A DNA stretch of 64,000 nucleotides from Gemmatimonadaceae bacterium (lineage in GTDB: Bacteria > Gemmatimonadota > Gemmatimonadetes > Gemmatimonadales > Gemmatimonadaceae). A model generated the notes under the pieces. The model searched no databases, had not been told where the DNA came from, and worked only from the letters and a program-made list of their open reading frames with translations. The DNA lies in NCBI GenBank assembly GCA_022843265.1, contig JALHNZ010000001.1:1-64000 (forward strand), written 5' to 3'. Below are positions 44,170 through 50,699 of this stretch, piece after piece (the stretch's first letter is position 1; the number at the start of each line of letters is the position of its first letter). Made by a program: the position numbers and the translations under genes.

Positions 44170-44817
44170 TTACCGCTGTCCACTGCGGCGCCAGGCTTCA
44201 ACGCCGCCGCGATACCAGAGCACATTCGTGAAGCCCGCGTTGATTGCCCGCAGCGCGGCGTTGTACGACATCCAGCATTGTGGCGAGAGACAATAGAACA
44301 CCAGTGGTGTGTCCTTCCTCCCCTGTGCCGCTTGCGACAACATGGCGGCGACGCGCGACTGCACCTCGTCGGTAAACGAGCCGGGTTGCGACATCCACGC
44401 GCCGGAAATCGCGTTGGGCAGCGCGTCTGGCCCACCGAGCACGTCCACGAGCACGTGCGGGATCTGCCTGCGTTGCAGGTCGAGTACTCCGGTGGTGGTC
44501 ACGACCTGTCCCCCCGGAATGCTGGTAGGCGTGGGCCCGTGCATGGACCCGTTGTACAGCGTCCGTGTGGGCGCTACGCCAAAGTCTTCCCGCTCCAACT
44601 GCGTGTTCTTATCAACGGGCGCGCTCTTTGACGCCGCGGTGCCAGGCGCCGCGTTGCCTGGCGCCGCTCCACTGCGGACTCGCTGAGAATCCGGAGGCGG
44701 CGTGGTGACCCTACGACCGAAGCGGTCCTGCGCCGCACTGTTGGTGGAGACCAGCGCGAGCAGCGGAAGCACGCAAATCGCGCGCATGAGAAGTTTGCGT
44801 GCTGTCAGACGCGTCAT
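44170..44817 (-). CDS. Periplasmic rhodanese-like protein with CXXXXCW-type motif
   Basis: 215 residues from the ATG overlapping the previous stop (ATGA). Signal peptide 'AICVLPLLALVSTNSAA' then QD. After a Pro/Ala-rich linker comes a rhodanese-like domain: 'HVLVDVLGGPDALPNAISGAW', then 'LVFYCLSPQCWMSYNAALRA' and 'GFTNVLWYRGGVEAWR'. The Cys-x4-Cys-Trp arrangement in the active-site loop matches the PQQ-dependent-catabolism-associated rhodanese-like family. No PQQ enzyme is seen nearby, so the role here is open. It is coupled to the lipoprotein upstream. Confidence 0.8.
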   Translation of the reverse strand: MTRLTARKLLMRAICVLPLLALVSTNSAAQDRFGRRVTTPPPDSQRVRSGAAPGNAAPGTAASKSAPVDKNTQLEREDFGVAPTRTLYNGSMHGPTPTSIPGGQVVTTTGVLDLQRRQIPHVLVDVLGGPDALPNAISGAWMSQPGSFTDEVQSRVAAMLSQAAQGRKDTPLVFYCLSPQCWMSYNAALRAINAGFTNVLWYRGGVEAWRRSGQR

Positions 44818-46073
44818 GGAATCACCTTCATCTGTGTGGCCTCGATGCCGTACTGGCTTGGGTTGAAACTGGGATTTTTGGTGAGGATATAGGCGTCCTG
44901 ACCGTGCACACGCCACGCATTGCCGAACGTGTGGTCGAGTTGCACGGGACTGTTACTGACGGGATCCAGATAGGTGTCCACACCGCGTATTGCCTCGAGG
45001 CTGCGACGCTGGATGCGATCATCCGTGGACTCGCCCGGATACAGCTCGCCACCGCCCGCGCCACTGGTCGCGCGGTCGAAGCCAGACATGCGCTGAAAAC
45101 TTTCAATGTTGGACTTGGTGGCAGCCGCACCCCCGGCCACGATGATCGCGGCGCGTTCACGGGTCCCCTGAACGGCCACCGCGCCAAGCTGCTGCTGCAG
45201 TGCAAAGAGCCGCTCCAACCACGGTCCGTTCGGCACGATCGAACGACGCGCGGCCTCGACAAGATCAAAATCCAGTTGTCCCTCGGGGGCGGAGGCGGCG
45301 AACGAACCAAGCGTTTCACCCGTGCCTGACATCAGCGGCGTGCCGCCCATCGGATTGGCCAGCTGCGAAGCGAAGAACACCGCCGACACACCTGCGAGAC
45401 CGCGCATTTCCACGCCGTCTTGCGTGAAGGCGAACAGCACTTCACCGCCATCCGCACGGACACGCATCGACAGCCCCATCGAGCTCATCATTTGTTGCGT
45501 CCGTTGCGCGTACTCAGTGGCGGAGCTCGCGTAGTCGGGGCGCTCACGGTAGTCCAGAATGCGAGCGCCAGCGTAGGCGCGCTGCACGTGCGCTTCGAGA
45601 TACTCACGCGCGCTGGTGAACGTGGCGGGTACGCAGTCGCCGCTGCCGCCGGTGTTCGAGTACGACCACACCTCGGTGGGGAAGATCGAGATCGAGGATC
45701 GACCTTCGGGCGACGTCGCCTGCCAGTTCACCCCGTAGGGGGCACTGCAGGTACCGGATCCGGCAATGATGCCGCCCGTGGTGCGCCACCCCATCGGCAC
45801 CAGCACGGACATCGCGGGCAACGCGGCAATCACGCCAGGATCATCGATGCTCACGCGCTGCAGCATGAGCGCATCCGGTGGCAGCGGCGCCGTGGGGCGC
45901 AGAGACGCTCCCGACTCGTTGCCAGGCAGAGAGCTCGCGTCCTCCGACATGCCGAGGGACGCACGTGTTTGCGCGTCGCCCTCACCACGGCCCGCGCCCT
46001 CGCAACCCAACAATGCAACGCAGAGCAAGAGGTGTTGGCCGAGCAACGCGTGGGGAAACGAACGTGAAGACAT
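44814..46073 (-). CDS. Unrecognised lipoprotein
   Basis: 419 residues. Lipoprotein signal 'LLLCVALLGC' at the N-terminus, then a Ser/Pro-rich linker (about 30-75) and a globular body with no recognised domain. Noted features are 'MSVLVPMGWRTTGGIIAGSGTCSAPYGVNW', a Cys pair that may be disulfide-linked ('SGTC' and 'SGDC'), a 'VRADGGEVLFAFTQDGVEMRG' beta segment and a C-terminal 'QLDHTFGNAWRVHGQDAYILTKNPSFNPSQYG'. It is translated just ahead of, and coupled to, the rhodanese-like gene. It starts 129 bases from the divergent arsR gene. Confidence 0.75.
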   Translation of the reverse strand: MSSRSFPHALLGQHLLLCVALLGCEGAGRGEGDAQTRASLGMSEDASSLPGNESGASLRPTAPLPPDALMLQRVSIDDPGVIAALPAMSVLVPMGWRTTGGIIAGSGTCSAPYGVNWQATSPEGRSSISIFPTEVWSYSNTGGSGDCVPATFTSAREYLEAHVQRAYAGARILDYRERPDYASSATEYAQRTQQMMSSMGLSMRVRADGGEVLFAFTQDGVEMRGLAGVSAVFFASQLANPMGGTPLMSGTGETLGSFAASAPEGQLDFDLVEAARRSIVPNGPWLERLFALQQQLGAVAVQGTRERAAIIVAGGAAATKSNIESFQRMSGFDRATSGAGGGELYPGESTDDRIQRRSLEAIRGVDTYLDPVSNSPVQLDHTFGNAWRVHGQDAYILTKNPSFNPSQYGIEATQMKVIP

Positions 46074-46168: not shown

Positions 46169-46204
46169 TTGCACATTTCAAATATCGTTGTACTATTGAA
46201 ATAT
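46169..46204 (+). promoter_or_regulatory. arsR promoter with overlapping ArsR operator
   Basis: A -35-like TTGCAC (46169-46174) and a -10-like TACTAT (46191-46196) are 16 bases apart. An AT-rich inverted repeat, ATTTCAAATA (46175-46184) with TATTGAAATAT (46194-46204), lies across the spacer, the -10 box and the start codon. A start site 7 bases after the -10 falls on the A of the ATG (46203), so the mRNA is predicted to be leaderless. There is no Shine-Dalgarno sequence upstream. A bound ArsR dimer would block polymerase. Confidence 0.7.
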
Positions 46205-46577
46205 GGAAAAGAACGTCGCACTCTCCGTCTTCGACTCGCTCTCGTCCGGGGTCCGGCTCGACGTCTTCCGCCTGCTGGTGCGGACGGGAGCCGACGGCAT
46301 GGTGGCCGGTGACATCGCTTCGGCGCTCGAGATCCCGTCCACGAATCTGTCGTTTCACCTGAAGGCGCTGACGCAGGTTGGCATGCTCAGTGTCACGCAG
46401 GAAGGCCGATTTCTGCGATACCGCGCCAACATCCCGCAGATGCTCGACCTCATTGCCTACCTGACCGAAGAGTGTTGCGGCGGGCACCCGGAACAGTGCG
46501 CAGATCTGGGAGCACTCACGTGCTGCACAGACAATGCGATGGCCACGCTTTCCTCAACGCGCACACCATCCTCATGA
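46203..46577 (+). CDS. arsR: Arsenical resistance repressor ArsR
   Basis: 124 residues with a winged-helix HTH ('VAGDIASALEIPSTNLSFHLKALTQVGMLSVTQEGRFLRYRA'). The classic ELCVC metal site in the recognition helix is absent. Instead a C-terminal cluster (Cys91, Cys92, Cys99 in 'ECCGGHPEQC', then Cys107-Cys108) resembles the C-terminal As(III) site known from the Acidithiobacillus-type ArsR. As(III) binding should release the repressor from the operator at its own start. First gene of arsR-arsD-arsA-acr3. Its stop overlaps the arsD ATG. Confidence 0.93.
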   Translation: MEKNVALSVFDSLSSGVRLDVFRLLVRTGADGMVAGDIASALEIPSTNLSFHLKALTQVGMLSVTQEGRFLRYRANIPQMLDLIAYLTEECCGGHPEQCADLGALTCCTDNAMATLSSTRTPSS

Positions 46578-46978
46578 GACTTCAAGTGACGACGATTCAA
46601 GTGTATGACCCGGCTCTTTGCTGCAGCAGCGGCGTGTGTGGTACCGATGTGGATCAGGCGTTGGTCACGTTCTCCGCCGATGTAGAATGGGCTCGGCAGA
46701 ATGGCGCGAACATCGAGCGGTTCAACCTCGCGCAGCAGCCAGAGGCCTTCGCGGAAAACGCATTGGTGCGCGCTGCACTTGTTGCCGCTGGACAGAACGC
46801 GCTGCCAGTGGTTCTCGCCAATGGACAGCAGGTGCTCGCGGGACGCTATCCGAGTCGTGATGAACTGAGTGCGTGGATGGGAAGCACCACGGTACGCCGT
46901 ACGCCCCTGGTCCAGATGGATTCCTGCTGTGGACCGAACACCTCATCAGCCGAGTCCGCCACAGGCGGCTGCTGCTGA
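46574..46978 (+). CDS. arsD: Arsenite metallochaperone ArsD
   Basis: 134 residues from the ATG overlapping the arsR stop (ATGA). The thioredoxin-like fold begins 'VTTIQVYDPALCCSSGVCG', with Cys16, Cys17 and Cys22 matching the As(III)-binding Cys12/13/18 of plasmid ArsD. Two extra cysteine pairs near the end (118-119 and 133-134) correspond to the vicinal pairs of the long ArsD form. ArsD hands As(III) to the ArsA ATPase, raising its affinity. 18 bases before arsA. Confidence 0.93.
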   Translation: MRLQVTTIQVYDPALCCSSGVCGTDVDQALVTFSADVEWARQNGANIERFNLAQQPEAFAENALVRAALVAAGQNALPVVLANGQQVLAGRYPSRDELSAWMGSTTVRRTPLVQMDSCCGPNTSSAESATGGCC

Positions 46979-46996
46979 CCACCACCACACGTCAGC

Positions 46997-48784
46997 ATGC
47001 AATTTCTTGCGAACGCACCACGCTTTTTTTTCTTCACCGGCAAAGGCGGCGTAGGCAAAACGTCCATCGCCTGCGCGACCGGCGTAAAACTTGCGGAGGC
47101 GGGCAAGCGTGTGCTGCTGGTGAGCACCGACCCGGCATCGAACGTGGGACAGGTCTTCGGCATCCGCATTGGCAATACGATTACTGACATTGCTGCGGTA
47201 CCGAACCTGAGCGCGCTCGAAATCGATCCCGAAGCGGCGGCACAAGCGTATCGTGATCGCATTGTCGGCCCGGTGCGTGGTGTGTTGCCAGACGACGTGG
47301 TGAGAGGCATCGAGGAGCAACTCTCGGGTGCGTGCACTACGGAGATTGCGGCCTTCGACGAGTTCACCGCGCTGTTGATCGACTCGGCGCTCACTGCCGA
47401 CTACGATCACATTCTATTCGACACCGCGCCCACGGGGCATACGATTCGTTTGCTGCAGTTGCCCGGCGCGTGGAGCGGCTTTCTTGAGGCCGGCAAAGGT
47501 GATGCGTCATGCCTCGGTCCGCTCGCGGGTCTCGAAAAACAGCGTGAGCAATACAAGGCCGCCGTGAACGCGCTGTCCGACGCGCAACGCACTCGACTCG
47601 TGCTTGTCTCACGCGCACAAACGTCGGCGCTGCGAGAGGTGGCGCGCACGCATGAGGAGCTCGCCGCCATTGGCCTGCGCCAGCAACACCTGGTGATCAA
47701 TGGCGTGTTGCCAGCGAGTGCCGCGCATGGTGATGCGCTGGCCACCGCTGTGTTCCATCGCGAACAAGCCGCCATCGCGGCGATCCCCGCTGCGCTGCAC
47801 GCGCTGCCCCGTGATGAGATCGCACTCAAGTCGTTCAATCTGGTCGGACTGCACGCACTGCAGCAGTTGCTCGACGTCACCAATGCGCACGCGGAGAATC
47901 AACCCGTGCGCGCAGCCGAAGCGTTTACGGCGCCGACGCTCGCAGAGTTGGTGAATGACATCGCAGCTGATGGTCGAGGACTGGTCATGGTCATGGGCAA
48001 AGGCGGTGTGGGCAAAACAACGCTCGCGGCTGCCGTGGCGGTGGAGCTTGCGCATCGCGGCTTGTCGGTGCACCTGACCACATCAGATCCAGCGGCGCAC
48101 CTCACGGAGACGCTTGCGGAAACGCTCGACCACCTGAGTGTGAGCCGCATTGATCCGCACGCCGAAACAGAACGCTACCGTCAGAAAGTGCTCGACACAA
48201 AAGGCGCCAAGCTCGACGCACAGGGTCGTGCGCTGTTGGAGGAAGATCTGCGCTCGCCCTGTACTGAAGAAATCGCGGTATTCCACGCGTTTACGCGCAT
48301 CATTCGTGAGGCCAGCAAAAAGTTTGTGGTCATGGATACCGCACCCACCGGCCACACGTTGTTGTTGCTTGATGCCACCGGGGCGTATCACCGCGAAACC
48401 GCACGTCAAATGGGCGACAGCGGCGTGCATTTCACCACGCCGATGATGCAGTTGCAGGACCCGAAACAAACCAAGGTCTTGCTGGTCACGCTGGCCGAAA
48501 CCACACCGGTGCTGGAAGCGGCGAGTTTGCAGGACGACCTGCGCCGCGCCGGCATTGAACCGTGGGCGTGGGTGATCAACAACAGCCTCGCGGCGGCAGA
48601 CACGCACTCACCGCTCTTGTTGCAGCGAGCGGAGAATGAGCGCTCAGAGATTGAAGCCGTCGCGACTGTGCACGCCGTGCGCTATGCGGTGGTACCGTTG
48701 ATGGCGATTGAACCGGTTGGAGCCGCGAATCTGCGTGCGCTGTCGCGCGACTCGCACGCAGACCTGCAGAGCGTTCCAGCGTGA
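46997..48784 (+). CDS. arsA: Arsenite-translocating ATPase ArsA
   Basis: 595 residues in two homologous halves. P-loops are GKGGVGKTS (15-23) and GKGGVGKTT (in '[16 protein letters not shown]'). Each half has the signal-transduction motif DTAPTGHT. Candidate As(III)-ligand cysteines are in '[14 protein letters not shown]', '[11 protein letters not shown]' and '[13 protein letters not shown]', the positions expected for the three-cysteine site. ArsA energises arsenite export as the catalytic subunit of a pump. The stop overlaps the start of the transporter gene, so all four ars genes are tightly coupled. Confidence 0.94.
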
Positions 48785-49896
48785 ACGCGCCGTCACCGAT
48801 CGGTTCGTTCGAGCGCTACCTGTCGTTGTGGGTCGCACTCTGCATCACGGCGGGCATTGCCCTTGGCAGTCTGCTCCCTGGAGTCTTTCAAACGCTCTCG
48901 GGCGTTGAGTACGGCTCCGTGAACTTTATTGTCGCGGTACTCATCTGGTTGATGGTGTACCCGATGATGGTGTCCGTGGACTTCACTAGCCTCAAGCGCA
49001 TTCATGAACGCCCCAAAGGTCTGATCATCACCTTGACGGTGAACTGGCTGATCAAGCCATTCACCATGGCGGCACTGGGCGTGCTGTTTTTCAACTATCT
49101 GTTTGCAGACGTCATCGCTCCCGCAGACGCCAACCAGTACATCGCCGGTCTCATTCTACTGGGCGCGGCGCCGTGTACCGCCATGGTGTTTGTCTGGTCA
49201 CAGCTCACCGGTGGCGACGCCACTTACACGTTGGCACAGGTCGCGCTCAATGATGTGATCATGATCTTTGCCTTTGCGCCAATCGTTGCGTTGTTGCTCG
49301 GCGTGACCAACATCGACGTGCCATGGGCCACGTTGATCTTGTCGGTGGGATTGTACGTGTTGATCCCTTTGATCGCCGGTGTGCTCACACGGATCCAGTT
49401 GAGTAGCTCCGCCAATACGCCCGCGCTCGCCAACCTCGCGGTTTCGCGCTTCACTGCGCGCATCAAACCGTTGTCGATTCTTGGTTTGCTTGGCACGGTG
49501 GTGCTGCTGTTTGGTTTTCAGGGGCGCATTATTCTTGACCAGCCGCTGTTGATTGGCCTGATCGCCATTCCACTGTTGATTCAGTCGTACGGAATTTTTG
49601 CGATCTCGTATGGCGCAGCAAAACTGTGGAAAGTGCCATTTAATGTGGCCGCACCATGTGCGCTGATTGGCACCTCCAACTTTTTTGAGTTGGCGGTTGC
49701 GGTGGCGATCGGTTTGTTCGGTCTCAACTCCGGCGCCGCGCTGGTCACGGTGGTTGGGGTGCTGGTTGAAGTGCCGGTGATGCTGTCACTGGTTGCGTTT
49801 GCGAACCGGACGCGCGGGTGGTTTCCGGCGTCGCCGGACGATGCGGTGAGTTGTGCGCCGGTGGCAGTGGGCACGAATGAAAAGGCGCGTGTGTGA
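48781..49896 (+). CDS. acr3: Acr3-family arsenite efflux permease
   Basis: 371 residues, about ten membrane helices. '[19 protein letters not shown]', '[20 protein letters not shown]' and the key Cys in '[15 protein letters not shown]' identify the Acr3 (BART superfamily) permease rather than ArsB. Acr3 exports As(III) from the cytoplasm and here probably forms a pump with ArsA. Start GTG overlaps the arsA stop by four bases. A perfect hairpin follows at 49924. Confidence 0.94.
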
Positions 49897-50465: not shown

Positions 50466-50699
50466 CTACCCGTTTCGCGTGCTCACACGCTCCCACACGA
50501 ACAACGCGCCGGGCTCGACATCGAACAACTCGCAGAGCCCGGCGAGTAGGACGCCATCCACACGCATGACCGCGCCTGTTTCTAAGTCACTGATGCGGGC
50601 GCGACGCGTTCTCAGTGCCAGCGCCACGGCCTCTTGGCTGAGCCCCGCATTTTCTCGGAGCTCACGCAATCGGAGACGAAGAACGCGACGCGGCGGCAT
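50466..50699 (-). CDS. XRE-family HTH regulator
   Basis: 77 residues covering a single Cro/C1-type helix-turn-helix: 'RLRELRENAGLSQEAVALALRTRRARISDLETGAVMRVDGVLLAGLCELFDVEPGALFVW'. The basic lead 'MPPRRVLRLR' precedes it. Small single-domain regulators of this kind commonly repress the excision or transfer genes of mobile elements. It is the outermost gene of element A. Confidence 0.85.
   Translation of the reverse strand: MPPRRVLRLRLRELRENAGLSQEAVALALRTRRARISDLETGAVMRVDGVLLAGLCELFDVEPGALFVWERVSTRNG

Follow-up and report, generated by a model that had tools for sequence, protein, structure and literature searches.

The arsR gene of a Gemmatimonadaceae bacterium most probably has a compact, autoregulated promoter that drives an arsR-arsD-arsA-acr3 operon and gives a leaderless arsR mRNA. 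We analysed a window of 64,000 nucleotides (contig JALHNZ010000001.1 of assembly GCA_022843265.1, positions 1 to 64,000), in which arsR is the first of four ars genes:

46203–46577, forward strand: arsR, 124 aa, AfArsR-like (HTH_20, E = 2.2e-12; PDB 6j05, E = 2.8e-23)
46574–46978, forward strand: arsD, its start overlapping the arsR stop (ATGA)
46997–48784, forward strand: arsA, arsenical pump-driving ATPase (TIGR04291, E = 3e-275)
48781–49896, forward strand: acr3, arsenite efflux transporter (TIGR00832, E = 2.3e-116), its GTG start overlapping the arsA stop

The solved structure nearest to the window ArsR, at the E value given above, is the ArsR of PDB 6j05, which we take to be AfArsR of Acidithiobacillus ferrooxidans. 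The CC-x6-C motif of the window protein (C91, C92 and C99) aligns with the type 2 arsenite site of 6j05, and this C-terminal three-cysteine CC...C arrangement is that of type 2 (AfArsR-like) proteins, the types being those defined in PMC11868830. Beside the operon, a 419-aa frame on the reverse strand (44814–46073) runs divergently from it and gave no match in a Pfam search, and a 77-aa Cro/C1-type helix-turn-helix protein is encoded downstream of acr3 (50466–50699, reverse strand).

The elements at the arsR start, with offsets counted from the ATG and conservation taken over 81 upstream regions, are:

46169–46174, forward strand: −35-like hexamer TTGCAC, read from the sequence, with a 16-bp spacer to the −10
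46177–46181, forward strand: inner-left operator half-site TTCAA (−26 to −22); T 79, T 76, C 67, A 72, A 71 of 81
46188–46192, forward strand: inner-right operator half-site TTGTA (−15 to −11); T 77, T 78, G 74, T 66, A 79 of 81
46191–46196, forward strand: −10 element TACTAT (−12 to −7), sigma-70-like, with A(−11) and T(−7) conserved
46195–46200, forward strand: outer-right operator half-site ATTGAA (−8 to −3), moderately conserved, holding most of the right arm of a repeat proposed earlier
46203, forward strand: A of the arsR ATG, where transcription is predicted to begin on the basis of the 6-nt gap, the pyrimidine at −1 and the purine at +1

The first-pass annotation had the −10 ending six bases before the ATG, and this reading stands: 46197–46202 separate TACTAT from the ATG at 46203–46205. 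An in-frame TGA at 46197–46199, two codons upstream, rules out an alternative upstream in-frame start, so arsR cannot begin before the ATG at 46203. The sigma-70-like promoter of the window is weak, matching the consensus at 7 of 12 positions; its site was unlisted in a promoter consensus scan of the window, and TTGCAC is either degenerate or displaced by one base relative to the −35 block of the family. Leaderless genes are recognized by a −10 about 6–7 nt before the start codon and by the lack of an upstream Shine–Dalgarno sequence; arsR shows both, though the second is not distinctive in this host genome. RNA polymerase would use the −35 and −10 at 46169–46196 and begin at, or within one base of, the A of the ATG, so that the arsR mRNA would be leaderless and ribosomes would bind its 5′ AUG directly.

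The distance from the −10 to the ATG is strongly conserved among relatives. A search of genome contigs gave 143 loci, the best 80 of which were kept as close orthologues; in a search of the phylum, 7 of 395 genomes had a match at E 1e-10, three of them, including the window's own, with high identity. The 81 distinct upstream regions comprise the window, L003 and 79 of the best 80 of the 143 loci, leaving out L087 (identical to L083) and L002 (same contig as L008), and come from Gemmatimonadota, Pseudomonadota, one member of Chlorobiota and one of Acidobacteriota. In 65 of the 81, a TANNNT motif has its first base at −12, against a median of 1/81 over offsets −70 to −1; A(−11) is found in 79 regions, as is T(−7). 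Conservation of the −10 position is far beyond chance. The same motif stands at −12 before just 2 of 292 other long open reading frames of these contigs; the gene calls behind this and the Shine–Dalgarno backgrounds are crude (long reading frames, taken from the first ATG or the first few ATG/GTG codons), and the fractions are noisy. Position −1 holds a pyrimidine in 64 of the 81 regions and a G in none.

Exceptions are few. In L027 and L083, A(−11) and T(−7) are kept but position −12 is neither a T nor an A; L017 lacks a −10 at −12 and carries its dyad at −50.5; and in L045 the −10 sits one base nearer the ATG. Start positions commonly vary by a base or two, and together with L045 this would fit mixed starts, mostly at the A of the ATG with a minority 1–2 nt inside or outside it, tuning the amount of ArsR. 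We consider such a mixture unlikely, as a spacing so firmly fixed points to a single main start.

The best dyad of the family, TTCAA-N6-TTG(A/T)A, is centred at −18.5 (46184.5 in the window) in 68 of the 81 regions. It occupies the spacer and the first bases of the −10, with which the inner-right half-site TTGTA has TA in common. In the relatives, the −35 block TT(T/G)CA(A/T) at −35 to −30 doubles as the outer-left half-site, and outer half-sites at about −35 to −29 and −8 to −3 extend the dyad to a near-perfect palindrome in some members (for example, L042 and L050). A canonical 12-2-12 ArsR/SmtB site (core TCAAATA-xx-TATTTGA, PMC6555750) was rejected on spacing, TCAA-N6-TTG(A/T) here versus TCAA-N8-TTGA. 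An ArsR dimer bound to TTCAA-N6-TTGTA and the flanking half-sites, from −35 to −3, would block polymerase, and As(III) binding at C91, C92 and C99 would release ArsR from the DNA.

The first-pass annotation had instead placed the operator over the start codon, on the inverted repeat ATTTCAA (46175–46181)/TTGAAAT (46196–46202). This repeat is exact over 7 bp and touches the ATG only through an added CA/TG pairing across one mismatch; when the 48-bp region was shuffled 3000 times with dinucleotides preserved, 4.5% of the shuffles contained a perfect inverted repeat of 7 bp (loop 3–20), and on its own the repeat is marginal against chance. In terms of the family pattern, its left arm falls on the inner-left half-site and its right arm on the outer-right one, with the centre at −14.5. 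An operator formed by this 14-bp-loop repeat and reaching the start codon, with ArsR also occluding the DNA of the AUG region, would draw on the exact arms in the window and on −14.5 being the second-best family centre when dyads are scored by complementarity over the arms (0.563). We hold it to be quite improbable, since the best centre is −18.5 (0.731), column −2 is unconserved and the near-perfect palindromes of L042 and L050 centre at −18.5. With conservation centred there and the outer half-sites ending at about −3, a start-codon-covering operator was rejected as the main dyad.

The operator at −18.5 also moves independently of the promoter. Ten loci have their dyad shifted by 1 to 11 bp, to −26.5 in seven of them and to −29.5, −19.5 or −10.5 in the remaining three, one apiece. 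Each of the ten retains (T/A)A...T at −12 to −7; the −10-to-ATG distance is thus held independently of the operator. Of all these comparisons, a −10 that stays put beside a moved operator speaks most strongly for selection on the distance as such. The 13 of 81 regions listed without the −18.5 dyad are these ten together with L017, L045 and L030; in L030 a second dyad does lie at −18.5 and the −10 is retained.

Missing Shine–Dalgarno sequences carry less weight. AGGA, GGAG or GAGG within −16 to −5 was found in 0 of the 81 arsR regions versus 60 of 292 other long reading frames of the same loci. In the window itself, arsR had earlier been set apart from many other genes by its lack of such a site; the lack is real, but the contrast is weak, as arsD and arsA have none either (duplex energies, with no Shine–Dalgarno core: arsR −0.9, arsD +1.9, arsA 0.0). 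Across 240 kb of the window's contig the Shine–Dalgarno signal is modest and many genes are without a clear site, and for both reasons we gave its absence little weight. Over the same 240 kb, TANNNT peaks at −13 to −11 (7, 7 and 4 of 449 candidate starts versus about 1–2 per position), and because of this enrichment leaderless starts are probably not rare in the host genome. The acr3 gene has a weak Shine–Dalgarno site. Overlapping or near starts, together with the missing sites of arsD and arsA and the weak one of acr3, suggest that these three genes are translationally coupled to arsR.

A start well upstream, with leadered, Shine–Dalgarno-free translation (A/U-rich or S1-dependent) and a −10-like sequence that is only operator, would suit the weak −35/−10 of the window and the many contig genes without a clear site, arsD and arsA among them, but is the least probable reading, given a −10 that stays at −12 when the operator moves (10/10), the pyrimidine/purine pair at −1/+1 and a Cupriavidus metallidurans arsR start reported at 0 bp (PMC9045368). 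We regard the arsR transcript as very likely leaderless, and on this point the earlier claim is well supported by the comparative data and by published start mapping in another species.

Beyond the close orthologues, we compared 35 further loci at 41–66% identity: every one at 55% or above is leaderless-like, and those at 43–51% are mixed, some being Shine–Dalgarno-led with a promoter further upstream. Three distant Gemmatimonadota relatives (41–46% identity) have TTGACA-17-TANNNT-6-(G/A)TG. A 124-row tree was built leaving out L002, L007 (partial), L087, L144, L092 and L093 (copies of L013 and L021), and L139 and L143 (in-frame stops); it is one run on few columns, with an unsettled bootstrap (0.921). 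Among its rows,.A...T stands at −12 in 106, a Shine–Dalgarno core without it in 7, and neither in 11. The main clade has the leaderless-type arrangement in 97 of 99 rows, and a sister branch, mostly at 43–51% identity, has.A...T at −12 in 6 of 22. Sister-clade members L111, L113, L119, L137, L138 and L141 carry a promoter further upstream and a Shine–Dalgarno core. With these genes Shine–Dalgarno-led, a single ArsR family appears to switch between leadered and leaderless forms. The window falls with L008 and L003, likewise from Gemmatimonadota, into one supported group inside a poorly resolved, mostly proteobacterial clade, and the patchy occurrence in Gemmatimonadota suggests horizontal transfer, in either direction.

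Leaderless mRNAs are usually treated as a trait of particular genomes. Here, one regulatory gene keeps the leaderless layout across Gemmatimonadota, beta- and gammaproteobacteria and others, and its flanking genes rarely do. Leaderless arsR is a kind already known, and apart from the C. metallidurans reports the open-licence PMC literature searched held no paper on a conserved leaderless arsR; what is new is the breadth of conservation, which is undescribed in that literature. These arsR genes offer a clean natural collection in which to study why selection favours leaderless starts in autorepressors, and so short an arsenic-responsive promoter may find use in biosensors. We advance only tentatively, as a possibility we rather doubt, that the block from the −35 to the AUG is a portable, self-contained expression cassette, that leaderlessness is a trait of the gene and not of its host, and that arsR loads ribosomes downstream. 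Were this so, a mobile ars operon could be transcribed, autorepressed and translated with little need of host leader signals, in keeping with a layout retained across bacteria that otherwise show Shine–Dalgarno signals, and the leaderless arsR would load ribosomes for the overlapping, Shine–Dalgarno-poor arsD, arsA and acr3.

Leaderless autorepressors are familiar from lambda cI and Tn1721 tetR, which are translated from a 5′ AUG and have their operator in the promoter, with proteins and operators unrelated to ArsR. AfArsR (6j05) shares with the window ArsR the C-terminal CC...C arsenite site and, by sequence, the winged-helix fold, and differs in cysteine spacing (CC-x5-C versus CC-x6-C). TANNNT about 12 bp before the start is a described bacterial leaderless signal (Zheng 2011, PMC3160421), and the leaderless genes of that genome-wide survey have the same signal and distance as the window arsR; a term search of PMC3160421 found no mention of ArsR or Gemmatimonadota, and nothing on leaderless arsR was found in the retrieved sections of PMC5116461 and PMC3032703. 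PMC7563307 counts arsR of C. metallidurans among the leaderless mRNAs of that species, and PMC9045368 puts the mapped start of this gene 0 bp upstream of Rmet_0333; the passages on it in these two sources hold no discussion of breadth of conservation. Like the window gene, arsR of strain CH34 heads its ars operon, and it is reported as leaderless and RpoD-dependent; the operon differs (arsRIC2BC1HP), and the likeness is drawn from the published description, not from sequence. The P. putida ArsR1 and ArsR2 promoters share with the window an operator overlapping the −10 (footprints −39 to +14 and −36 to +23) and differ in being leadered, as ribosome-binding sites are marked in the figure legend (PMC7994332). 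Near-leaderless ArsR-family genes are also found in Thermus, where TtsmtB starts at −3 (PMC5658604).
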